From: a virus
Length of the DNA: 43,432 nt
Virus record (IMG/VR): IMGVR_UViG_3300035034_001119
Location: 1-43,432 of that record
Strand: one strand, 5' to 3'
Position numbers and translations under genes: made by a program. Every line of letters starts with the position of its first letter. Position 1 is the stretch's first letter. Below the pieces are notes generated by a model. That model did not search any database. It worked only from the letters and a program-made list of their open reading frames with translations, and had not been told where the DNA came from. This document shows, piece after piece, positions 5,916 through 41,371 of the stretch.

Positions 5916-6181
5916 TATAGAACCGCCTGATACTGTTTGACGATGCCAGTTGCAAGATGATTGATGTAATTTGTGATATCAGTATTATTGAAATCTAAGA
6001 TTGTTAAAACTTGCTTTATTTGTTTTCGCATTTGTGGTTCTGATTTAGTAACTTCAACTAAATCTTCAATGAATTCGTTATATTCGTAAATGTGAACTGA
6101 ATCATTCATATCTACAATGAATGTTTCTTGCAGATCGATTCCTTTTTCTTCTAGTAGTGTTGTGATGTAATTCTTGAACAT
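5915..6181 (-). CDS. Hypothetical protein, 88 aa
   Basis: First gene of the leftward block, just after promoter P4. The product is acidic and mostly helical (KSEPQMRKQIKQVLTIL; YINHLATGIVKQYQAVL). Not recognised. As the gene nearest the divergent control region it could be an early regulator, which is inference from position only. Confidence 0.7.
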   Translation of the reverse strand: MFKNYITTLLEEKGIDLQETFIVDMNDSVHIYEYNEFIEDLVEVTKSEPQMRKQIKQVLTILDFNNTDITNYINHLATGIVKQYQAVL

Positions 6182-6214
6182 TTGTGGTTGCTTTCGTTGA
6201 TTTGTTATACATAT

Positions 6215-6256
6215 ATAATATCAAAGCTGTTCCGTTATGTCAACGCTGTTTGCTTA
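6215..6256 (-). promoter_or_regulatory. Early promoter P4 with tandem conserved elements
   Basis: Minus strand TTGACA (6243-6238), 17-base spacer TAACGGAACAGCTTTGA, TATTAT (6220-6215). An upstream second element TAAGCAAACAGCG lies at 6256-6244, again 19 bp away, as at P2. This is the first promoter of the leftward block. Confidence 0.85.
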
Positions 6257-6323: not shown

Positions 6324-6332
6324 TGCTATAAT
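6324..6332 (+). promoter_or_regulatory. Extended -10 promoter of the large structured RNA
   Basis: TGC followed by TATAAT (6327-6332) forms an extended -10 box; no good -35 is seen. Predicted start near G6339, which is exactly the first base of the first stem (GGCTGAGG). Confidence 0.65.
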
Positions 6333-6338
6333 CAAGAC

Positions 6339-6856
6339 GGCTGAGGGTTTGCGTGGTTGCACCTCAGCCAATCTAGTTATTGAAATAACCATGCAATTCG
6401 TTTATGATTAATGCACGGCAGTTATACGTCAGAACTATAATTGCCTGATGAAAATTCAATCACAAGTGAGGGTATCTCTTGTATTTTTCTGCATGGCACG
6501 ATATAATTATTATATTCTGACGTATAGCTAAATCTCGATGAAACACCCACATTTGCAGGGTGTTTTTTCATTTAAGCGTTGGGAGCCGATCACCGGTAAA
6601 GGGGCGCTATAAAGAACCTGGATCAATTCGTTGATCAATTAACAACTTGAATGCATTTTGCTGATAAAAGCGAAAACGAAATATTTGGCACAACTAGCGG
6701 CGATGTGGAAACCCGAAGATCATTGTGATCAGGCAAATCATTAAATTCTAGAATAATGAACCATCACCAAATACTAGGAGTAATTTTTATCAGCGATATG
6801 CATTCAATAGTTGAGCACAAGTGATATGTTGGCTAGTCGTACGGCCCGTTGTACGA
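6339..6856 (+). ncRNA. Large structured non-coding RNA candidate (3' end uncertain, to ~7104)
   Basis: This part of the 970-bp divergent gap has no sizeable reading frame but dense base pairing. Helices seen: 6339-6346/6362-6369; 6376-6380/6385-6389 with loop TGAA; 6420-6434/6515-6529 (15 bp, one G-U) continuing past one bulge with 6436-6441/6509-6514; 6621-6626/6631-6636 closed by TTCG; 6643-6669/6785-6813 (about 26 bp, one mismatch, one 2-base bulge) enclosing 6682-6688/6767-6773, 6702-6705/6762-6765, 6718-6722/6726-6730 and 6738-6743/6754-6759; and 6837-6842/6851-6856. The size, phage context and ornate branching recall GOLLD and ROOL RNAs, but I could not match a family by eye. More hairpins at 7021-7055 and 7071-7104 may belong to it. 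Confidence 0.7.
6541..6568 (+). terminator. Terminator-like hairpin inside the structured region
   Basis: AAACACCC (6541-6548) pairs with GGGTGTTT (6558-6565), followed by a T run to 6568. It could end a ~230-nt transcript from the 6324 promoter, or be an internal hairpin of a longer RNA. Confidence 0.55.
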
Positions 6857-12478: not shown

Positions 12479-14029
12479 ATGGGCAAAGTTCAAACCGCAA
12501 TAGCCGAAATGTTTGGCCGCGAAAAACCACAACAATCAATGTTTGCCAAAATGATTAATTCTTTTTGGGGTTCGAACGTAACTGCAGATTATGCCCGATC
12601 TGACTACAAGCTATTTCGTGCGATATATCACGCATCAATGATCAAAGATGGATCAGTTACCAAAGGCGAAGATTTTATATTAGGTGCAGGATTCGCAAAG
12701 CCGATCATCAATGCTGCAACGGCATTTGCTATTGGTCAAGGGTTCAACGTCAACATTGAGAATGCAGAAAAAGGCACATCGATTCAAGCAGCACAAGACG
12801 ATGTGAACCGATGGATTCAAGAACACATATCAGATTTTTATAATTTCACACGATATGCATTGCGTGAGGGCGATTCATTCATGATAATGCATGACGATCT
12901 ATCACTTGAATTCGCTGAGCCTGATACAACGACTGTGATATATGATCCAATTAGCGGCGGTGTGCAAGGCTATGATGTTGCTGAAACTGTTGAAACATCA
13001 CCAAATGTAAACACTACATTCACAAGAAAATTCAGAGAATCATCATATGTCGTAACTGAATCTGTAAATGGCGGCAAAGAAACGACATTAGTTGAACGTG
13101 TTTTTACTGTTGATGGATTAGTTGATCTGCATGAATTAGATGATGAACAGCGTGATGCATTCGCAGGGTTCGATCCAGAAGATATTATTGAAGTGCCAAT
13201 GCCAATATTCCATTTTGCGAATGAGCTTGAACCTAAAGCAGTTTATGGCATGTCTGATCTGCAAAACTCGTTGGTGTATTTCAAAGGTTATTCAAAGATT
13301 CTGCAAGAAGCAACCAAATCAAATATTTATAACAGCACACCAATTCCAGTGATCAGTGGCGATAAAAACGATGGACTGTTAGAAGCAGACAAATCAAAGA
13401 AAAATATCACTTGGGGTCGCAACATGGTTTTGTATCTCAAAGGCGAGAATGCATCAGCTAAATTCATGGACGTACCGCAAACGATGGCTGATACAGGCGA
13501 ATTATTGCAATATTATTTCTATCTAATTGTACAAGCATCTGAGACGCCTGAATTCATACTTGGAACAGCTATCAGTGGTTCAAAAGCATCAGCACAAGAG
13601 CAAATGCCAATCATGGTTAAAAAAGCTGATCGCAAGCGTGCTCAGTTGTCTAAAATATTGCGTGTTGTTGTTGATTGCTACATATACAAAAAAATCATTT
13701 CAGGTGATCCAAATTTCTATGCAATCCAAACAAATGAACTTGATTATAAATTGTCATTTCCGCCAATCGTTGATGATGATAAAAAACTAACCCTTGATAC
13801 TATTTCAATGCTTGTAGAACAGGGCATTATGTCAAATCGAACTGCACTTGAAATTCTTGCATCAGATCGTGTCAATGACGTTGACAAAGAGATTGCACGT
13901 GCGAAAGAAGATGCAGGCGAACGAGATTCACGGCTTGGATTAACACCATCAGACAACAGTAGAATAATTGACGAGCTCGATAATCTTGATGTGCCGCCAA
14001 CTGATCCAGTAATACCAGAAGAAGAATAA
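12479..14029 (+). CDS. Portal protein, 516 aa
   Basis: The dodecameric ring at the capsid vertex through which DNA passes. Identified by length, position between terL and the MuF gene, and portal-like features: GDSFMIMHDDL and an EPDTTTVIYDP strand in the N-terminal half, a long central helix region, and SETPEFILGTAISGSKASAQEQ typical of the portal stem/wing segment. The C-terminal ~60 residues are acidic. Near the N-terminus AIAEMF (residues 7-12) repeats an xAEM motif shared with protease, scaffold and capsid. Confidence 0.85.
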   Translation: MGKVQTAIAEMFGREKPQQSMFAKMINSFWGSNVTADYARSDYKLFRAIYHASMIKDGSVTKGEDFILGAGFAKPIINAATAFAIGQGFNVNIENAEKGTSIQAAQDDVNRWIQEHISDFYNFTRYALREGDSFMIMHDDLSLEFAEPDTTTVIYDPISGGVQGYDVAETVETSPNVNTTFTRKFRESSYVVTESVNGGKETTLVERVFTVDGLVDLHELDDEQRDAFAGFDPEDIIEVPMPIFHFANELEPKAVYGMSDLQNSLVYFKGYSKILQEATKSNIYNSTPIPVISGDKNDGLLEADKSKKNITWGRNMVLYLKGENASAKFMDVPQTMADTGELLQYYFYLIVQASETPEFILGTAISGSKASAQEQMPIMVKKADRKRAQLSKILRVVVDCYIYKKIISGDPNFYAIQTNELDYKLSFPPIVDDDKKLTLDTISMLVEQGIMSNRTALEILASDRVNDVDKEIARAKEDAGERDSRLGLTPSDNSRIIDELDNLDVPPTDPVIPEEE

Positions 14030-17082: not shown

Positions 17083-18096
17083 ATGATTTCCATTAAAGAA
17101 ATGTCTCAAAATTCACGCGAAATGATAATCGCTGAGATGAAAAAAAGTGATAACTTTAGCCTTGCATGGGGCGACGGTGTTAATATTTCGGAAATGATCA
17201 CGTCTGATGCAGGTTCGCAAGAATTTGTTGATCAGGTAACGTATGATCTTTACGAAGGTGCCGAAGAAGTCGAACTTGTTTACAAACAGTTCTACAACAC
17301 CATAACTGATGCAAACCTACCTGAAATCGTGCCACTTCGTGATGCTGATGAAATCCAGGTTGTGTTCTTGCAGCACGTTGAAGGCGGCGAAGTTCAATTT
17401 GGTGCTATGAAAGCAGGATCAAAGAAAACTGTTGAAATTCTTACTTGGGCAGCAGGTTTGCAATTCACAGAAGAATTTGTGCTTTACAACAAGACTTGGG
17501 AAATTTCGGAAAATGCTCGTGCATTAGGCCGTGCTCACAACATTGTTCGTAACCACCTTGGATTAGGTCCAATCGTTTCTGGAACATATACAACTACTGG
17601 TGGCGGTTTACCGGCACAGCGAACAGCTCAAGAAGCTGGAACAGCACAGGCAGTTGCATATACAACTGATGCACAAACTTCATTGAAGAATGCGCTGAAA
17701 GTTCTACCAAAAGCGAACAAGATTCTATGTAACTCGTATGATTACGAAACTGTACTAGAGGCAATCGCATCTGACGTATTCGATCAGCAATCAGTGCTTA
17801 AGGGTTCTCTCTCACGAAGAATCACAGCTGATAATGTTGTTGCATACGATGGTGAAACTGTAACTGTTGGAAAACGAACATATACTTACGCAGGCGTTAC
17901 CGTCGGCCAAGCATTTGTTGTCGCAGCCAAAAGCTCAAGTTTCCGCGAATTTGTTAAACATGAATTGCTTGTCGATTCTGATAACAAAGACCTCAGCCGT
18001 TTGGTTCTTGATCAAACAGTTGCGCGTGCTCGTCTCGGTGTATTCGCAGGAATCGGCTCAAAAAGCGGTTCAGTGCGTGTAGCAATCTCAAGCTAA
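17083..18096 (+). CDS. Major capsid protein, 337 aa
   Basis: HK97-fold-type shell protein by position (after protease/scaffold and decoration), length and composition: an acidic E-loop-like region (YEGAEEVELVYKQFYNTITD), a long strand-rich core and a C-terminal VARARLGVFAGI. The N-terminus holds IKEM (4-7), IAEM (16-19) and ISEM (35-38), likely maturation cleavage sites removing ~38 residues. A strong terminator follows at 18118-18150, as expected for the most expressed gene. Confidence 0.85.
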   Translation: MISIKEMSQNSREMIIAEMKKSDNFSLAWGDGVNISEMITSDAGSQEFVDQVTYDLYEGAEEVELVYKQFYNTITDANLPEIVPLRDADEIQVVFLQHVEGGEVQFGAMKAGSKKTVEILTWAAGLQFTEEFVLYNKTWEISENARALGRAHNIVRNHLGLGPIVSGTYTTTGGGLPAQRTAQEAGTAQAVAYTTDAQTSLKNALKVLPKANKILCNSYDYETVLEAIASDVFDQQSVLKGSLSRRITADNVVAYDGETVTVGKRTYTYAGVTVGQAFVVAAKSSSFREFVKHELLVDSDNKDLSRLVLDQTVARARLGVFAGIGSKSGSVRVAISS

Positions 18097-18117
18097 GCAA
18101 CATAATTGAGATCATCA

Positions 18118-18150
18118 GAGGTACATTGAAAAATGTGCCTCTTTTGTTTT
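18118..18150 (+). terminator. Terminator after the major capsid gene
   Basis: GAGGTACAT (18118-18126) pairs with ATGTGCCTC (18133-18141) with one G-U pair; loop of six; then TTTTGTTTT. The hairpin also carries the -35 box of the next promoter. Confidence 0.85.
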
Positions 18151-18155
18151 ATACT
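18126..18155 (+). promoter_or_regulatory. Promoter embedded in the capsid terminator
   Basis: TTGAAA (18126-18131) lies at the terminator loop; an 18-base spacer runs through the 3' stem and T run to TATACT (18150-18155). Drives 18192-18596, whose ribosome site is TTGGGAG. Confidence 0.6.
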
Positions 18156-18191
18156 GCTAATACAAATTAAATAATTGGGAGTAACCAAAAT

Positions 18192-18596
18192 ATGAGTGAA
18201 TTAAATATTGAGCAACTATCAAAGAGTTCAACAAGCCGACCAGATTTAGAAAAAGTCGCAGTTGATCTTGGGCTAGTGAATGCAGGAAAATATCAAAATA
18301 AACCTGCTGTGCTAGAAGCAATCAAGCGTGTGTATGAAGCTAAAGAAGATGCTGCAACAGTTGATGCCGAATTAACACCTGCTGATGATCCGAATAGCGG
18401 TGATGATCCAACAACTGATAGCACTAATCAGCCTGTACAACCTGTTGTAACAGACGACAACGATTCAGATGATGATAGTGATGAAGATGATGCAGAAACG
18501 CAGTCAGAGAAGCCGAAAACAGCTCGAAAACCAGTGCAGAATAGAAATCAGGGCCATGCAACTCGATTTTCTGACACTGGACGTCCATTGTTTTAA
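18192..18596 (+). CDS. Hypothetical head protein with acidic linker, 134 aa
   Basis: The N-terminal ~50 residues form a SAP/HeH-like helix pair (SRPDLEKVAVDLGLVNAGKY, then KPAVLEAIKRVYEA). A long Asp/Thr-rich acidic linker follows, ending with a short basic, aromatic C-terminus (ATRFSDTGRPLF). Position between capsid and connector is typical of poorly conserved head-completion proteins. A similar helix pair occurs at the start of the putative small terminase. Function unknown. Confidence 0.65.
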   Translation: MSELNIEQLSKSSTSRPDLEKVAVDLGLVNAGKYQNKPAVLEAIKRVYEAKEDAATVDAELTPADDPNSGDDPTTDSTNQPVQPVVTDDNDSDDDSDEDDAETQSEKPKTARKPVQNRNQGHATRFSDTGRPLF

Positions 18597-18600
18597 TACA

Positions 18601-18609
18601 TGATATAAT
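18601..18609 (+). promoter_or_regulatory. Extended -10 promoter for a small RNA
   Basis: TGA followed by TATAAT (18604-18609). The predicted start, G18616, is the base of the small RNA's first stem. Confidence 0.6.
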
Positions 18610-18615
18610 CATTTT

Positions 18616-18691
18616 GGTGTTGCGGTGCCCACCCCCTCAACACCAATCTTGAGAAATTTATGTGAATGAGAAACCGCTACGGCGGTTTTTT
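18616..18691 (+). ncRNA. Small RNA with C-rich loop, ~76 nt
   Basis: Between its own extended -10 promoter and an intrinsic terminator. First stem GGTGTTG/CAACACC (18616-18622/18638-18644), extendable to nine pairs, presents a loop containing CCCACCCCC. A 26-base linker and the terminator hairpin follow. C-rich loops are typical of actinobacterial and Gram-positive small RNAs (for example 6C RNA) that pair with G-rich ribosome sites. No reading frame of note lies in it. Confidence 0.6.
18671..18691 (+). terminator. Intrinsic terminator of the small RNA
   Basis: AAACCGC (18671-18677) pairs with GCGGTTT (18682-18688), loop TACG, T run 18686-18691. Confidence 0.85.
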
Positions 18692-18697
18692 GTTTTC

Positions 18698-18706
18698 TGC
18701 TACAAT
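18698..18706 (+). promoter_or_regulatory. Extended -10 promoter, leaderless connector transcript
   Basis: TGC followed by TACAAT (18701-18706), six bases before ATG 18713, with no ribosome site. It lies immediately after the terminator T run. Confidence 0.6.
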
Positions 18707-18712
18707 AAATGT

Positions 18713-19267
18713 ATGAATGAAACAACTATACGCAATAGAATCGGCGACAAACCAAAGACAGAGATTGAACGCTATATTGGAAATGGTACATTAACAGCAT
18801 TTGATATTCACAACAAAAACCCTTTTGATTTCGTGATTACTATTGCAAATAGTCTTGTTTCTAGTGCAGATTATGAATATGATTCAGACATTGAAAAAGT
18901 GATATTTGATACAGCACCGGCAAATGAAGCGAACATGGAAATTAAATATAAATATGCTGCATTCACTGATTTAGAATTAACTCAATTTATTGCTGATGCA
19001 GATGATGATATAGACAAAGCCACATCAGAAGCATTACGGCAAACATTGGGCGATCAGGCTCGAATGGTCAGTTTTCAACACGGTGATCGATCCGTTTCAA
19101 TGTCAGATATATTCAAAAATCTTTCAACATTACTCGATAAATACGAACGCAGAATAACAAATGCCGGTGCGAATAGCGGATCATCATTTGAAATTGGAAC
19201 ACGAACAATGAGCGATGCAAAACAAACTAACGGGCGATCAACCGATATTAGTCGATTGTTTGAATAG
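18713..19267 (+). CDS. Head-tail connector (adaptor) protein, 184 aa
   Basis: First gene of the neck module. I start at ATG 18713 as a leaderless start; an upstream in-frame GTG (18662) would run through the terminator. The helical C-terminal half (ADDDIDKATSEALRQTLGD; DIFKNLSTLLDKYE) and size fit the gp6/gp15-type adaptor that binds the portal. The assignment depends on order: connector, closure, gp10-like, tail terminator, tail tube. Confidence 0.6.
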   Translation: MNETTIRNRIGDKPKTEIERYIGNGTLTAFDIHNKNPFDFVITIANSLVSSADYEYDSDIEKVIFDTAPANEANMEIKYKYAAFTDLELTQFIADADDDIDKATSEALRQTLGDQARMVSFQHGDRSVSMSDIFKNLSTLLDKYERRITNAGANSGSSFEIGTRTMSDAKQTNGRSTDISRLFE

Positions 19268-19275
19268 GTGCTGAT

Positions 19276-19617
19276 ATGTCATTATTCGATGATCTTGAAA
19301 CAGCAGCCAACAATATATTGATTGAACAAGACTGGCAAAATGCATTCTTATATCGATATGCAGGCGGTTCAGATGGTTTCAACACAGAAGTTACACATAG
19401 TGCCACTTATTCAAAAGCAATCAATATAGCGATCTCTCGTGGCCAAACTACTAATGGTTCTGAATACATTGGAACAACCGATGAAACTAATATACAGCAA
19501 GGCGACATCATCGAAGTTGTTGATGCACGATTTGAAAAACAACGATACATCGTCAAAGGTTATGAGCCAACAGAAGAACACACTTTATTAGAAATGGAAG
19601 AAACGAATGCCACGTAG
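19276..19617 (+). CDS. Head closure (stopper) protein, 113 aa
   Basis: Small beta-rich protein in the second neck position. Features such as YSKAINIAISRGQTTNGSE and GDIIEVVDARFEKQRYIVKG (a strand pair ending in a Gly turn) resemble head-tail joining proteins of the SPP1 gp16 type. It overlaps the next gene by 11 bases. Confidence 0.6.
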   Translation: MSLFDDLETAANNILIEQDWQNAFLYRYAGGSDGFNTEVTHSATYSKAINIAISRGQTTNGSEYIGTTDETNIQQGDIIEVVDARFEKQRYIVKGYEPTEEHTLLEMEETNAT

Positions 19618-19972
19618 CGGATCAATCCGAATCGATACATCACAAGTCAGGCGTAATCTGGCTATTTATGGTGCAACTGGATTAAGCCGCGCAAAAATTG
19701 GAATGCAAGTTTTATCTGCACAAAATGAGAATCGTGCCAAATCAAAAAGACGTTGGACTGATCGAACTGGCCAAGCACGCACAACGATCACCGGATCATA
19801 TGAAGATACATCAACAGACATTACAATTGGACTTGCTATCGGTGCTGATCACGGTATTTTTCTTGAAAAAGCGAATGGTGGAAAATACGACATAATTTGG
19901 CCAACTGTGAATGGTGCAAGACGTGAATTGTTGGAAATTGGGCGAATTGCAATGAAATCAGGTAAAGTATAG
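19607..19972 (+). CDS. HK97 gp10-like neck protein, 121 aa
   Basis: The pattern of an N-terminal helix, RWTDRTGQARTTITGSYE, then GADHGIFLEKANGGKYDII and a C-terminal helix is typical of HK97-gp10-like proteins in the neck cluster. Identified by both motif shape and position between closure and tail terminator genes. Confidence 0.72.
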   Translation: MPRSGSIRIDTSQVRRNLAIYGATGLSRAKIGMQVLSAQNENRAKSKRRWTDRTGQARTTITGSYEDTSTDITIGLAIGADHGIFLEKANGGKYDIIWPTVNGARRELLEIGRIAMKSGKV

Positions 19973-19974
19973 AT

Positions 19975-20439
19975 ATGTTAGCCAATACGATTCAAGTCAA
20001 TGAAATAATCAGCGGCATTTATAATGTTCTATCAGTGCGATCAGAAATAACCGATAAACTCGCATTAACGCCACCATTTGACAACGCATCAGGCACGAAA
20101 GCTCGCAAGAATTCAATTGTGCCTATGTCGCACATCATGGAAAAAACACTTGCACGGCCAACACCATTAATTGGCATTAGATCAGGAACACTGACAAAAG
20201 TTGGCAATCACACGTTTGATGCATTTATATTCATCAGGTGCTATACTGGAATAGACAAGTCTTTTGTTTTAAGTAACGAAATAATGTCGCTCGTAAACAA
20301 TTCACTTGACGGTCAATTAATTAATATGGATTCAGCAGTTTTAGCAGAAATGACATTGGAACAAATGTCAGGCGAAGAATATGATGAAGGGTATAAATTG
20401 AATTATCGTGAAGCGCAATTTAAATTAACGATTACATAA
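19975..20439 (+). CDS. Tail terminator protein, 154 aa
   Basis: Position just before the major tail protein and an alpha/beta pattern (VNEIISGIYNVLSVRSEI, then AFIFIRCYTGIDKSFVLSNE) suit the ring protein that caps the tail tube and joins it to the head. No unique motif, so the call is mostly from gene order. Contains VLAEMT near the C-terminus. Confidence 0.6.
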   Translation: MLANTIQVNEIISGIYNVLSVRSEITDKLALTPPFDNASGTKARKNSIVPMSHIMEKTLARPTPLIGIRSGTLTKVGNHTFDAFIFIRCYTGIDKSFVLSNEIMSLVNNSLDGQLINMDSAVLAEMTLEQMSGEEYDEGYKLNYREAQFKLTIT

Positions 20440-20455
20440 CAAAGGAGAAATTTTT

Positions 20456-21037
20456 ATGGACATCACAGGATTTTACGGATCAGGCGTTAGACACGCATGG
20501 GTTCGAACAGCAGAAGATGAAGCATTTGATATAGATGCGATCATTACAGTTGGTGGAGACACTGAAAACGAAGAAACAGAAATAATGGGCGACGACGCGA
20601 TCAAGGCAACTATTCGCACAGCATCTAAGATTTCTATGTCAGTTGAAGGCAACAGCCTTTCATTTGCAGCACATGCAGCATTGACAGGTAACGGCGCAAC
20701 TCAAACTGCTGCTGTTTCAAGTCCAGCATCACCACAAAGTGCAGAAATTGCCGGTGGAACTGATAGCGAATTAAATGCACCATACGTTGAAATTGGTGCC
20801 GTTACTGTTGGTAAAACATCAGACGGACGAAATGCATATCTTGTTCGAACATTCCACAAGACACAGGCAGGTCCAATCTCAACTGAGCAGGGCAACGGTT
20901 CTGAATCTACATGGTCATTCGATGCAATTGCTTATCAAACAGCAACAGATATTGCAGGCGATGCACTATCTACAAAGCGTATTGATACACGCAAGATCGT
21001 AATCGGCGATTTCGTTGATAACGGTGGCGCATACTAA
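20456..21037 (+). CDS. Major tail (tube) protein, 193 aa
   Basis: Strong ribosome site AAAGGAGAAATTTTT before ATG 20456. The protein is beta-rich with Ala/Thr/Ser loops (ITGFYGSGVRHAWVRTAEDE start; EQGNGSESTWSFDAIAYQT late), of normal tube-protein length, and precedes the tail chaperone pair. It should form the hexameric rings of the tail tube. Confidence 0.78.
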   Translation: MDITGFYGSGVRHAWVRTAEDEAFDIDAIITVGGDTENEETEIMGDDAIKATIRTASKISMSVEGNSLSFAAHAALTGNGATQTAAVSSPASPQSAEIAGGTDSELNAPYVEIGAVTVGKTSDGRNAYLVRTFHKTQAGPISTEQGNGSESTWSFDAIAYQTATDIAGDALSTKRIDTRKIVIGDFVDNGGAY

Positions 21038-26215: not shown

Positions 26216-28642
26216 ATGAACAGTTACACTGAATGGCAACTTGGAACCGCAGCCGCCAATGATTCGTCTATTGGCACGATTGAATTAACTGATCCGCAAA
26301 ATGTTCTAATTGATAATGCTGTTCAATACGCAGGCGATGGATTTCCATATTGGGATTTGGGCTCATACATGCGTTTTGCATTCATCAGCAACGCAGGCGA
26401 CAGTTTACGCAATCACACAGCAAAACTGATTGTTGATGGCGAAATAGTCGGCACAAATACAGCTGATGATGTATCAGTTGGTACAATTTCATCTGATCCA
26501 ACAGACTTTGAAACAATCGGCGATGATTCTGAATTATTTGGCGTTGCTGATTTAACTGCAAGGCAAGTCAGACGCAGCACATTCGGAATTGCAATGAATT
26601 TTTGCCGTCATAATAGTGGTGGAACACTTGTCAGCCAATCAAATTATCTAACCGTTACTGGATTTGATTTTAATATTCCATTAAATGCAACCATTACAGG
26701 AATTGAAGTCAAGTATATGGCTGCATTGCAAAATGTTGGTGGTGGTTTGAATGATACACGAATTCATTATGTGTTGATGCGCGTGCATTATTCATACGAT
26801 CCAGTTTTAAACGGCAAATCAAAAAGCAGAGGCTATATTCAATTCAATGAAGTTGAACAGCCTGAAATTAGCCAAGCAAAACATTATCAATATTTGTCTT
26901 ATGAAAAAAATCAGATTCGCGGTCAATGGCGTGATGTGATCAGTGTGCCGAGCATTTTGAATGCAGTAAATCAATTGCCTGGTCAATTAACAGTTGATCT
27001 TGCAAGAAATTTAGATAGTGTTGAACCTGAATACGAAGAAATTGAATTGACTGGTTATGGCGGCGAAGTTTTAGTTACTACTCAGAATAATGAAACAATT
27101 TTGGCAGGCGATGAAACATCATATGATATTGGTGCCGGTACAGATTTAGAAGTTGATCACACGATCAAAGTCAAAGAATTTTATGGCGGTTGGAAAACAC
27201 TGACACTCAGAAACGGAGAAGATTTGTTGACGTCTCAAGGCGAAGCGATAGAAGTGCCTGATGGCTACCCACGAGGTCGCATGTACTATCACGGCTATGT
27301 TAGTGATTATGGATTCGTTTATGATTCAAACATCAGCACAACGGCTGTTAAACTGCTGCATTTGAGCGATGAATTGAACAATGAGATATACAAAACAGAA
27401 GATATGTTAGAACTTGATAACATCACATTAAAGGAGCCATACACATTCATTCAATTTGGTGGCTTTTTCAAATACCCTGGCGATTCAGAATACGCAGGAT
27501 TCACATTTAGAGCACCATCAACATTCAAACTAAAAAGAATGACAATCAAAACATCTGGTTGGCGCGACAATATCATCACGATTACAATTCGTAGCGGTGC
27601 AACAATTGGTTCTGGTACATTTATTGGATCAGCAACAGCAACAATAAATGCAAGTGGAATCATAGATTTATCATATGCATTTGCACAAGCATTGTCATTG
27701 ACTAATGCAACCGATTACAATGCTGTTTTGACATCAGAATTCATCAAACAAACAGGTTCACAATCACACCCTGCAGCAATTTATGGTGGCAATGATATAG
27801 CAAATCATCTTGGGTATTATTACGATTCATCATGGAAATCAGCCGGTACAGATGTTGCATTTCAATTATGGGAAGAAGGTGGCGAAACTCGTGTGAATGA
27901 ATTATCAATTGCACCGTCAGACATTCAAAAGAAAATTCTTGATTTTAATGTTTTGAACGGCGGAATAATCACATATGCAAATGGCAGCATCATTGACACT
28001 GAAACGATTGTTAGCGCACCATTCAACGTGAACACGCTCAAAGAAGCAGGCGATTATGTTTTGAAACTAGCACCATCTGACTGGTATTACTATGTTGATC
28101 CAGGTCAATTAATTTACAATCTAAAGCCACGATCAGAAGAAGTTGATCATTGGTTCACACTCAGAAAAGACATCATTTCTCTGAAAATAAATAAAAACAT
28201 TGAAAATATATTAAATGAAGTTTACTTTACTGGCGGTGGTGATCCTGCATTGCTTAAACGTTATATTGACGTTACAAGTCAATCACAATGGCGAAAAGGA
28301 TTGGCCAAATTATCTGATGTGCGTGTTACAGATGATGACACTGCACAAATATTGATGGAATCAGAAGCGAATCGCAGAAGTCAACCAATATGGATTGGCA
28401 CATTAGAAGTTTTGCGATCAGAACACCCTAAATTTGCCGAACCTGGTCAAATTGCTGGATTCGTTGGATTCCAAAATATTATTGATTCAATAGTCGTGCA
28501 AATGATGAGCGTTGCAGTTCGTCATGATCGATTCGTTATTCAGCTTGGAACACAGCCACCAAAAACAAGCAAACGCATTGAAGATATCAAACGCAACTTG
28601 ACTAGAATTGAAATTGAGAACAATCCGAGCGCACCGGCATAA
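26216..28642 (+). CDS. Tail tip / minor tail protein, 808 aa
   Basis: Largest tip protein. The N-terminal part has repeated beta strands; around residues 270-400 it resembles hub proteins (AGDETSYDIGAGTDLEVDHT; YHGYVSDYGFVYDS). A lectin-like jelly-roll segment follows (FKLKRMTIKTSGW; GATIGSGTFIGSATATI). The C-terminal ~200 residues (EEVDHWFTLRKDIISLKI, then RSQPIWIGTLEV) are typical of siphovirus tip proteins. A role in receptor contact is inferred from position. Confidence 0.7.
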   Translation: MNSYTEWQLGTAAANDSSIGTIELTDPQNVLIDNAVQYAGDGFPYWDLGSYMRFAFISNAGDSLRNHTAKLIVDGEIVGTNTADDVSVGTISSDPTDFETIGDDSELFGVADLTARQVRRSTFGIAMNFCRHNSGGTLVSQSNYLTVTGFDFNIPLNATITGIEVKYMAALQNVGGGLNDTRIHYVLMRVHYSYDPVLNGKSKSRGYIQFNEVEQPEISQAKHYQYLSYEKNQIRGQWRDVISVPSILNAVNQLPGQLTVDLARNLDSVEPEYEEIELTGYGGEVLVTTQNNETILAGDETSYDIGAGTDLEVDHTIKVKEFYGGWKTLTLRNGEDLLTSQGEAIEVPDGYPRGRMYYHGYVSDYGFVYDSNISTTAVKLLHLSDELNNEIYKTEDMLELDNITLKEPYTFIQFGGFFKYPGDSEYAGFTFRAPSTFKLKRMTIKTSGWRDNIITITIRSGATIGSGTFIGSATATINASGIIDLSYAFAQALSLTNATDYNAVLTSEFIKQTGSQSHPAAIYGGNDIANHLGYYYDSSWKSAGTDVAFQLWEEGGETRVNELSIAPSDIQKKILDFNVLNGGIITYANGSIIDTETIVSAPFNVNTLKEAGDYVLKLAPSDWYYYVDPGQLIYNLKPRSEEVDHWFTLRKDIISLKINKNIENILNEVYFTGGGDPALLKRYIDVTSQSQWRKGLAKLSDVRVTDDDTAQILMESEANRRSQPIWIGTLEVLRSEHPKFAEPGQIAGFVGFQNIIDSIVVQMMSVAVRHDRFVIQLGTQPPKTSKRIEDIKRNLTRIEIENNPSAPA

Positions 28643-33265: not shown

Positions 33266-33294
33266 TTGACAAATACACAATGATGTGATAATAT
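33266..33294 (+). promoter_or_regulatory. Near-consensus promoter of a small RNA
   Basis: TTGACA (33266-33271), 17-base spacer, TAATAT (33289-33294). It has the same core as the early leftward promoters but lacks the conserved AACGGAACA spacer element. Confidence 0.8.
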
Positions 33295-33300
33295 GTATAT

Positions 33301-33423
33301 ATCAATCAAGATAAAAACAAAAAGATTGAAACAAAAACAAAGCGTAAAATTTTGACACATGCATTCCTAGCGATACATGAATAACAGCTAGCCACTTGAA
33401 CCCCGCAGATATGCGGGTTTTTT
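33301..33423 (+). ncRNA. Small RNA candidate, ~123 nt
   Basis: Bounded by a near-consensus promoter and an intrinsic terminator with no gene between. Possible folds: TCAATC (33302-33307) with GATTGA (33324-33329), an A-rich single-stranded stretch, CTAGC/GCTAG (33367-33371/33387-33391), then the terminator hairpin. It could act on host or phage mRNAs, or be a decoy. It is not simply the leader of 33442, which has its own -10 after the terminator. Confidence 0.6.
33402..33423 (+). terminator. Intrinsic terminator after the lysis region and small RNA
   Basis: CCCGCA (33402-33407) pairs with TGCGGG (33412-33417), loop GATA, then six T (33418-33423). It ends both the small RNA and read-through from the late operon. 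Confidence 0.88.
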
Positions 33424-33426
33424 GTT

Positions 33427-33435
33427 TGTTATAAT
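33427..33435 (+). promoter_or_regulatory. Extended -10 promoter, leaderless transferase transcript
   Basis: TGT followed by TATAAT (33430-33435), six bases before ATG 33442. It lies directly behind the terminator, so the downstream gene is an independent unit. Confidence 0.6.
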
Positions 33436-33441
33436 AAAAAT

Positions 33442-34155
33442 ATGAACCATGCACCAGATGTTGTATATATTTTGAAAGACAAATCACAATATGAAGAATT
33501 GCGTTATTCGCTGCGATCACTGAAAAATGCACCACATAGAAACGTGATAATTGCCGGTGCAAAACCTGATTGGCTGAAAGGCTGCATTCATTTGCCTGTT
33601 AAACGATTACCACTTGAAACAAACATGCAGAATGCCGAGCGTAATTTAATGAAAGCGTGCAATTACAAAAGTTTAAGCGATGAATTTATTTCAATGAATG
33701 ACGATTTTTTCATCATGAAGCCAGTTGAATCAGTAGAGTATTTTCATGATGGTGATCTAAAAACATGCATTGATGTGCGATCTGCAATCGGTTTGAACAT
33801 TCATTATGAAGTCGCAATGCGTGCAACTCACTCATATTTGGTCAATAAATTTGGCATTGAACACCCTGTTGGCTATCTGCTGCACACTCCGATGATATTG
33901 AATAAGCACAAGCGAATTCAATTAAATGAGATGTTTCAAAAACAAATAGACAATGATCAGATTATTTTAATGCGTACTGTTTACGGCAATATTTATGAAG
34001 TTGGCGGCACATTCTCAAAAGACATTAAAATTGTTACTGATCGATCAGAGTTTGACGAAACATATTTATCGACTAATGATCCATCGTTTAAATATGAACC
34101 TATTGGCGAATTTATACGCGCATCATTTCCTGACAAATCACCATATGAAATTTAA
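33442..34155 (+). CDS. Stealth-like glycosyl/phosphotransferase, 237 aa
   Basis: DVVYILKDKSQYEELRYSLR near the start and ISMNDDFFIMKPVES in the middle match the Stealth (CR1/CR2) signatures: D(I/V)VY, ELRYSLRSL and NDDFF. Stealth proteins are sugar-phosphate transferases that build surface polysaccharides. The gene stands alone behind a terminator with its own leaderless promoter, like a moron. It may alter the host surface to block other phages, or modify virion or DNA. It ends in a 3-base tail-to-tail overlap with the leftward transglycosylase gene. Confidence 0.72.
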   Translation: MNHAPDVVYILKDKSQYEELRYSLRSLKNAPHRNVIIAGAKPDWLKGCIHLPVKRLPLETNMQNAERNLMKACNYKSLSDEFISMNDDFFIMKPVESVEYFHDGDLKTCIDVRSAIGLNIHYEVAMRATHSYLVNKFGIEHPVGYLLHTPMILNKHKRIQLNEMFQKQIDNDQIILMRTVYGNIYEVGGTFSKDIKIVTDRSEFDETYLSTNDPSFKYEPIGEFIRASFPDKSPYEI

Positions 34156-40307: not shown

Positions 40308-40883
40308 ACGTTCTTTCAACAGTTTATCAATAAATTCTAATTCAGTGTGCAGATCACGCAATATCGTTTCATCAGTTGCATTTGCAATCAATCCTGAGAC
40401 GTTTTCACGGCGATCATTGAGATCAGGCGTGTTCATGACGAATAACCATGCTTCTGTTTGTCTGCGACGCTGCACTTTGCCATATGAATCAAATTCATCA
40501 TCAACAGTGGATGCTTTGGATTCGTTGCATTTTGCGTGTGCCGGTTGCAAGTTGGATTGTGTAAAAATCAAATCTGGTCTGCGTGTGCGTGGCAAAATGT
40601 GATCAATCGTTATTTCTGATTCATGCACTGGCTTTTTGCAAATGCCACATATTCGATTGCCATCTTTGTCGGCTGGATTATGTTTTAGATAATGCTTGCG
40701 AGCAATTGACCATTTAGATGCTTTTTTACCACGCGCTTTAATTGGCGTACGTTTCAATGGCTTAGTTGATTGTTTAATCGGTGTTTTTTTGTTCATGAAA
40801 CAAAATGTTTTTGTATGACCTGGCGTGCCACATAATTTGCAAGGTTTGCTGTCTTTCCATGAACTTTTTTTTGTTATTTTCAT
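40299..40883 (-). CDS. HNH endonuclease with N-terminal CCHC zinc knuckle, 194 aa
   Basis: Residues 15-28 form CKLCGTPGHTKTFC, an exact CX2CX4HX4C knuckle. A basic linker follows. The HNH domain lies at ~79-125: CGIC, ITIDHILPR (D94, H95), SNLQPAHAKCN (N111, H116, C119). The combination suggests a nucleic-acid-binding knuckle guiding an HNH nicking or cutting domain. Phage HNH proteins often aid packaging or act as homing enzymes; here it lies in the early block, far from terminase. Confidence 0.85.
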   Translation of the reverse strand: MKITKKSSWKDSKPCKLCGTPGHTKTFCFMNKKTPIKQSTKPLKRTPIKARGKKASKWSIARKHYLKHNPADKDGNRICGICKKPVHESEITIDHILPRTRRPDLIFTQSNLQPAHAKCNESKASTVDDEFDSYGKVQRRRQTEAWLFVMNTPDLNDRRENVSGLIANATDETILRDLHTELEFIDKLLKERLQ

Positions 40884-40954: not shown

Positions 40955-41350
40955 TTATTTGTTTAACTTGTCGTAATCTCCTTTTTTTACTTTTCGCTTT
41001 TCTATCGCAATCCGCAAATATCTGCGTGCAGTTTTGCGAGCAACTGAAAGTTTTGTTGCAACCTCTGAAACAGGGTGATTTTCCATGAACAGTTTGATTG
41101 CGACATCTAATCTATCGTTGTATTCAGATCGTGGTGGTAGTTTATTTTCATCAAGCAATGGATTTGAAAGTTCTTCATATTCCAAATTCATGCCTGATAA
41201 CCCACCGCCATCAATTGTTGCATCTACATTTTTTGTAGCTTTTATATATTGTTTTTCGCCAATTGCAGCTTTTAATATAAGCCGTAATTCGCCAATTTCA
41301 CTGCGTAACTTTGCAGTTTCTTTGTTAAATTTATTTGATGTAATAAACAT
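40955..41350 (-). CDS. HTH DNA-binding protein, 131 aa
   Basis: Helical N-terminus, a flexible middle (DATIDGGGLSGMNLEYEEL) and a C-terminal helix-turn-helix (DVAIKLFMENHPVSEVATKL then SVARKTARRYLRIAIEK). The domain resembles resolvase- or terminase-small-subunit-like HTHs. It is the clearest DNA-binding regulator in the leftward block, so it is a candidate to bind the shared promoter spacers; no direct evidence. Confidence 0.68.
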   Translation of the reverse strand: MFITSNKFNKETAKLRSEIGELRLILKAAIGEKQYIKATKNVDATIDGGGLSGMNLEYEELSNPLLDENKLPPRSEYNDRLDVAIKLFMENHPVSEVATKLSVARKTARRYLRIAIEKRKVKKGDYDKLNK

Positions 41351-41371
41351 AGTACCCCCGTGTTTAATTAA

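Follow-up and report, generated by a model that had tools for sequence, protein, structure and literature searches.

Antisense RNAs of the OOP and sar type are encoded opposite or beside their target genes. As described in a review, OOP RNA, sar RNA, and other phage antisense RNAs are small and turn down phage regulatory genes (PMC12197685). StxS, which arises from the phage promoter-terminator pair pR'-tR', was reported to block the ribosome site of a phage gene (PMC7873438). Small RNAs of low-GC Gram-positive bacteria have been described as directing exposed C-rich boxes against Shine-Dalgarno sequences (PMC4132741, PMC3861533), and 6C RNA, described in an actinobacterial core-genome setting, as carrying two stem-loops with approximately six C each (PMC4046766, PMC6582537). 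In the available parts of the review mentioned above, the main text was without the term "Gram-positive" and a table listed the Staphylococcus prophage RNA SprY (PMC12197685). A literature search for phage small RNAs in connection with a capsid gene, an intergenic location, and an intrinsic terminator gave no papers, and little seems to be known of small RNAs encoded among the virion genes of Gram-positive-type phages.

Within the window, namely the whole 43,432-base stretch of the virus record analyzed here (GC content, 0.386), positions 18616-18691 probably represent a phage small-RNA gene, novel in its sequence and of a kind already known. A promoter and a terminator were found to enclose a short untranslated stretch, and this arrangement was conserved in a relative, G001. 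As far as the sources above describe the C-rich, UCCC-motif RNAs RsaE, RNAIII, SprD, FsrA, and LhrC, the phage RNA resembled them in its exposed C-rich segment (based on predicted folds), short length, and 3' terminator, but differed in being phage-borne and in having a candidate target only. The exact word UCCC was absent from the exposed segment both in the window, GCCCACCCCCU (ACCCCC), and in G001, ACCCUCC. Like StxS and RNAs of the lambda 6S type as reported, it is phage-encoded and delimited by a promoter with a terminator close behind it, with the difference that a separate leaderless promoter serves the gene that follows. The likeness to 6C RNA as described lay in the C-rich loop, of which there is only one here, with no covariance-model match. 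Unlike antisense pairing of the OOP/sar type, the phage RNA would target a distant gene in trans via a short seed. If this reading is right, it would thus work like the UCCC-motif RNAs and StxS. It is not a 6C RNA.

Anatomy of the predicted small-RNA gene

The record showed the layout of a tailed phage, its early block lying on the minus strand and its virion block on the plus strand. Searches with its capsid and FtsK-like proteins retrieved mainly Bacillota phages, and the search with its C5-methylase led to no genus. The features around the locus are as follows.

17083-18096: capsid gene (PF25209)
18192-18596, plus strand: upstream gene of an acidic 134-aa protein of no family, following the capsid gene
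18601-18609, plus strand: extended -10 promoter TGaTATAAT (first promoter), with TG at 18601-18602 and TATAAT at 18604-18609, starting 5 nt past the upstream stop codon
18616-18691, plus strand: predicted 76-nt small RNA, its start taken from the -10 spacing (+7 = G18616) and its end from the terminator
18616-18644, plus strand: 5' hairpin of 7 bp with the 15-nt loop CGGTGCCCACCCCCT
18668-18691, plus strand: intrinsic terminator, with the stem 18668-18677/18682-18691, a UACG loop, and the T run 18686-18691
18698-18706, plus strand: second extended -10, TGCTACAAT, whose predicted start is ATG 18713, i.e., a leaderless mRNA; spacing identical in G001
18713-19267, plus strand: downstream virion-region gene (184 aa; phrog_1732, function unassigned; 63% identical in G001)
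19607-19972: Neck1-like gene (phrog_5)

As the earlier note had stated, the cassette lies between head and neck genes, with the capsid gene upstream and the Neck1-like gene downstream. From the 116-base gap between the acidic-protein gene and gene 18713 into that gene, the order of elements is TGaTATAAT, 5' hairpin, terminator, second extended -10, and ATG. The coordinates also bore out the extended -10 promoter, the C-rich loop, and the intrinsic terminator that the note had proposed: the hairpin was formed by pairing of GGTGTTG (18616-18622) with CAACACC (18638-18644), and the C-rich stretch CCCACCCCC was located at 18628-18636 inside its loop. As for the proposed start at G18616 opening a stem of 7-9 bp, the start agreed with the -10 spacing and a 7-bp stem was found; 9 bp would be reached only if transcription began at T18614. 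No -35 element was present at the usual spacing for the first promoter. A simple promoter/terminator scanner, which requires a -35 element, listed neither this promoter nor the terminator, the latter presumably being missed because part of its T run is taken up by the stem.

The fold of 18616-18695 had an energy of -29.1 kcal/mol (z -4.0), with 0 of 200 shuffles as good, and the two hairpins folded separately gave z values of -3.1 and -5.2. This anatomy, together with the promoter and terminator kept in G001, gave good support to the prediction of a discrete RNA gene of approximately 76 nt, and judging from these sequence elements, a discrete RNA is quite likely produced from 18616-18691.

Conservation and alternative readings of the cassette

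G001 (IMG/VR 2032320007_000045), whose capsid protein is 75% identical, was the sole close relative found. In its corresponding gap, an extended -10, TGGTATAAT, was located at 40459, at the same place and 3 nt past the stop codon, followed by a terminator at the same place with a wholly different stem sequence and by the second promoter, which stands at the same distance from ATG as in the window. The RNA body between promoter and terminator was hardly alignable between the two phages. For the predicted G001 RNA, 60 nt long, folding gave a z value of -1.67, with 15 of 200 shuffles as good, and revealed no strong hairpin at the 5' end; a conserved 5' hairpin was rejected for want of an equivalent there. 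Since the promoter and terminator are kept and the RNA body is not, the conserved trait would be a short RNA made at this place, with an exposed C-rich stretch in both phages, i.e., ACCCTCC in a predicted 5' single strand in G001 and CCCACCCCC in a predicted loop in the window.

In the more distant phages Youna2, BSP7, and phiCD27, the capsid gene is followed by only 14-40 nt, in which the cassette is absent. A wider capsid alignment comprised 80 loci, i.e., 79 besides G001; the cassette, defined as an extended -10 followed by a terminator, was found in 0 of the 12 examined out of these 79 (L021-L032), among which L024, L026, and L028 lack a downstream gap and L021 has a single one. Scans of genome contigs with proteins A1 and A3 revealed no further relatives, and those of viral contigs with single or paired proteins retrieved G001, the terminase adding five contigs at 23-28% identity. 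DNA-pattern scans for relatives gave none in one case and G001 alone in another, a blastn comparison of the stretch with phages yielded nothing beyond short matches at chance level, and the 18713 protein was found in no plasmid searched.

Because the downstream gene has its own promoter past the terminator, the first promoter could serve only to make the short RNA or to allow conditional read-through. The overall explanation that we tentatively adopt from the sequence, at somewhat less than an even chance, is a stand-alone trans-acting small RNA with the early gene at 40955-41350 as its best target. A substantial possibility is that the promoter and terminator mark a transcription-unit boundary in the virion block, insulating adjacent units, with the RNA being a by-product without trans function. 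The lack of conservation of the RNA body is consistent with such a role, as are terminator-plus-promoter modules elsewhere in the same phages, one following the capsid gene and one ahead of the leaderless gene 33442. However, the terminator and the second promoter (18698) would suffice for a boundary, leaving no use for the extra promoter kept in both phages.

Conditional read-through would make the cassette a cis-acting attenuator or antitermination site, at which transcription stops at 18691 unless a phage or host factor permits its continuation into the 18713 block. The promoter followed directly by a terminator is the layout of the lambda late promoter, pR'-tR', and the base of the RNA loop contains GCGGT (18622-18626), a sequence identical to part of the terminator 3' arm (18682-18686) that could conceivably compete for ACCGC (5 bp). 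We nevertheless regard this role as improbable, in that in both phages a separate promoter stands immediately ahead of the ATG of the downstream gene and inspection of the G001 RNA by eye revealed no equivalent competing element.

The motif TGNTATAAT alone was not enriched in the window (3 found versus 3.26 expected), as would suit a chance arrangement without transcription. A scan for the whole cassette (TGN-TA(T/C)AAT, then a stem and T run 30-120 nt from the predicted start), with parameters set after the site was known and hence supportive rather than blind, identified one site in the window, 18601-18691, versus 0/60 in first-order random sequences, and two in G001, one of them the orthologous gap, versus 1/60 in such sequences. 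These scans and the positional conservation in G001 make mere coincidence very improbable, and what exceeds chance is the combination of promoter and terminator, not the single motifs. Counting both strands, the window has just two places with at least 7 C in 9, and the C-rich stretch falls in one of them.

A leader peptide encoded in place of RNA action is scarcely credible: an 11-codon frame does open 1 nt past the predicted start (GTG TTG CGG TGC CCA CCC CCT CAA CAC CAA TCT TGA, with three consecutive prolines), but it has no ribosome site, and this short ORF was rejected as the G001 RNA contains no counterpart. Identity with 6C RNA can practically be dismissed, in that, beyond the C-rich loop and terminator, the RNA has one C-rich loop rather than two, its second hairpin has a UACG loop, and the covariance model RF01066 gave no match at gathering, none up to E 10 in the stretch, and none in a direct search of the record. 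Other Rfam families gave only weak matches far below the cut-off for the stretch (istR, 16.6 of 45 bits; SNORD116; isrK) and likewise for that of G001.

Proposed mechanism and candidate target

From the elements observed and their positional conservation in one relative, we infer transcription, timing, pairing, and target as follows. Host RNA polymerase would start at the extended -10 just past the upstream stop codon and would end at the intrinsic terminator 76 nt on, the next gene restarting from its own promoter. The stand-alone small RNA would then act in trans, its exposed C-rich loop pairing with G-rich ribosome sites and blocking translation; for action in trans through the C-rich stretch, we see nearly an even chance. 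The earlier suggestion of a C-rich element directed against G-rich ribosome sites stayed plausible, with CCCACCCCC and ACCCTCC in the two phages; membership in the 6C family failed. The target that had been suggested, GGGGG before 9574, found no support in G001, its duplex with the C-rich core ranking 2/47 by energy in the window and that of its orthologue 34/47 in G001. The best phage target would instead be the following early gene.

41354-41359, minus strand: candidate target ribosome site GGGGGT
40955-41350, minus strand: candidate target gene (131 aa; orthologue at G001 20112-20519, minus strand, 48% identical)

This gene would encode an HTH-like DNA-binding protein, such that the RNA made from the virion block would help turn down an early regulator late in infection. 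Its C-terminal segment was weakly similar to HTH_23, below the cut-off, and the G001 orthologue was weakly similar to a sigma-70/ECF model (E 0.0013, below the cut-off) and to phage DNA-binding families. The structure model was all helical and poor (pLDDT 63, pTM 0.25). That the gene encodes an early DNA-binding protein is thus no more than a reasonable guess.

Pairing was ranked over 47 non-overlapping orthologue pairs of the window and G001, which remained of 67 reciprocal best hits after overlapping frames were dropped. The candidate gene and its orthologue ranked first in both phages by core-duplex energy (-14.5 and -19.9 kcal/mol; label permutation p 0.018; shuffled cores 1/300) and also by perfect-seed energy (permutation 0.021; shuffled RNAs 0/400), in a test run after the candidate had already been noticed. 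The joint seed score was reached by 3.8% of random genomic segments and the joint energy in 5.1% of pairs of random C-rich segments, and chance agreement on the top gene was 1.9-2.4%. GGGGGT occurred in the window, on either strand, only at the ribosome site of the candidate gene and opposite the RNA itself; in G001, GGAGGGTAA was confined to the strand opposite the RNA, the orthologue, and one other early gene, which starts at 21029.

For the window alone, the best duplex was no better than those of shuffled cores (73/100 as good). With full-length RNAs, the candidate gene ranked 15 (window) and 7 (G001) of 47, and with the terminator removed, 8 and 1, respectively. Cross-pairing also worked, in that the G001 core placed the window gene first, implying that the pairing is generic C against G and not strictly matched. 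Furthermore, the 16S anti-SD ranked the candidate gene 4/47 in both phages, and part of the signal is therefore simply a G-rich ribosome site. Gene 40955-41350 is the best shared candidate with modest statistics (most controls at approximately 2-5%), a lead and not a result, and that it is indeed the target is possible but rather doubtful.

The candidate seed/site pairs are ACCCCC/GGGGGU in the window phage and UUACCCUCC/GGAGGGUAA in G001. That the virion-block RNA switches off the early DNA-binding regulator, with seed and ribosome site having changed together between the two phages, is an unlikely though attractive extension. If true, the locus would encode an RNA that exerts late-to-early feedback in trans, in a lineage of phages whose virion genes are leaderless, and would offer a compact case of an early-to-late switch tuned by an RNA in which the pairing site and the target evolve together.

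Other predicted RNAs and promoters in the two phages and in distant relatives

A conserved, strongly folded RNA of approximately 231 nt starts the plus-strand block (window 6324-6569, plus strand; G001 27809-28062), and is probably more interesting than the 76-nt RNA. It comprises an extended -10, a start hairpin whose loop, TTGCGTGGTTGC, is invariant, a long-range helix of 14 bp formed by GTTATACGTCAGAA and TTCTGACGTATAGC, and a terminator. Its minimum free energy was -71.9 (window) and -73.3 (G001) kcal/mol, 5 of 43 consensus pairs were changed on both sides between the two sequences, and a search of 6324-6569 against Rfam gave no family. A kissing interaction of the small RNA with the GUGGUU hairpin at 6339 was dropped, only 4 bp being found by eye.

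A second conserved untranslated stretch, of approximately 130 nt, was located at window 33267-33428 (plus strand) and G001 12678-12854. The two copies have AACAAAGCGTA and GCTAGCC-CTTGAAC in common, and the stretch ends in a terminator before gene 33442, which is leaderless and weakly Stealth-like; in G001, one further promoter-RNA-terminator cassette lies in between (12856-12963). At both 18698-18715 and 33427-33444, a terminator is directly followed by an extended -10 that would place the transcription start on ATG, predicting leaderless mRNAs. The pattern TGNTANAAT-N6-ATG occurred twice in the window, both times at a gene start, versus 0.37 expected, and at least two were found in 6 of 100 shuffles.

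A terminator and promoter were also found right after the capsid gene (window 18097-18191), as in several distant relatives (L021 5006-5137, L025 5006-5157, and L029 5036-5222). L021 and L025 have a hairpin with a CTACGTAG loop just 3' of the post-capsid promoter, and L029 has a structured stretch ahead of TGATATAAT and ATG in this region. A minus-strand repeat of an early promoter close to TTGACATAACGGAACAGCTTTGATA(C/T)AAT was present in both phages (window 6179-6245, 2639-2694, and 619-649), and this repeated sequence is perhaps a shared repressor operator.
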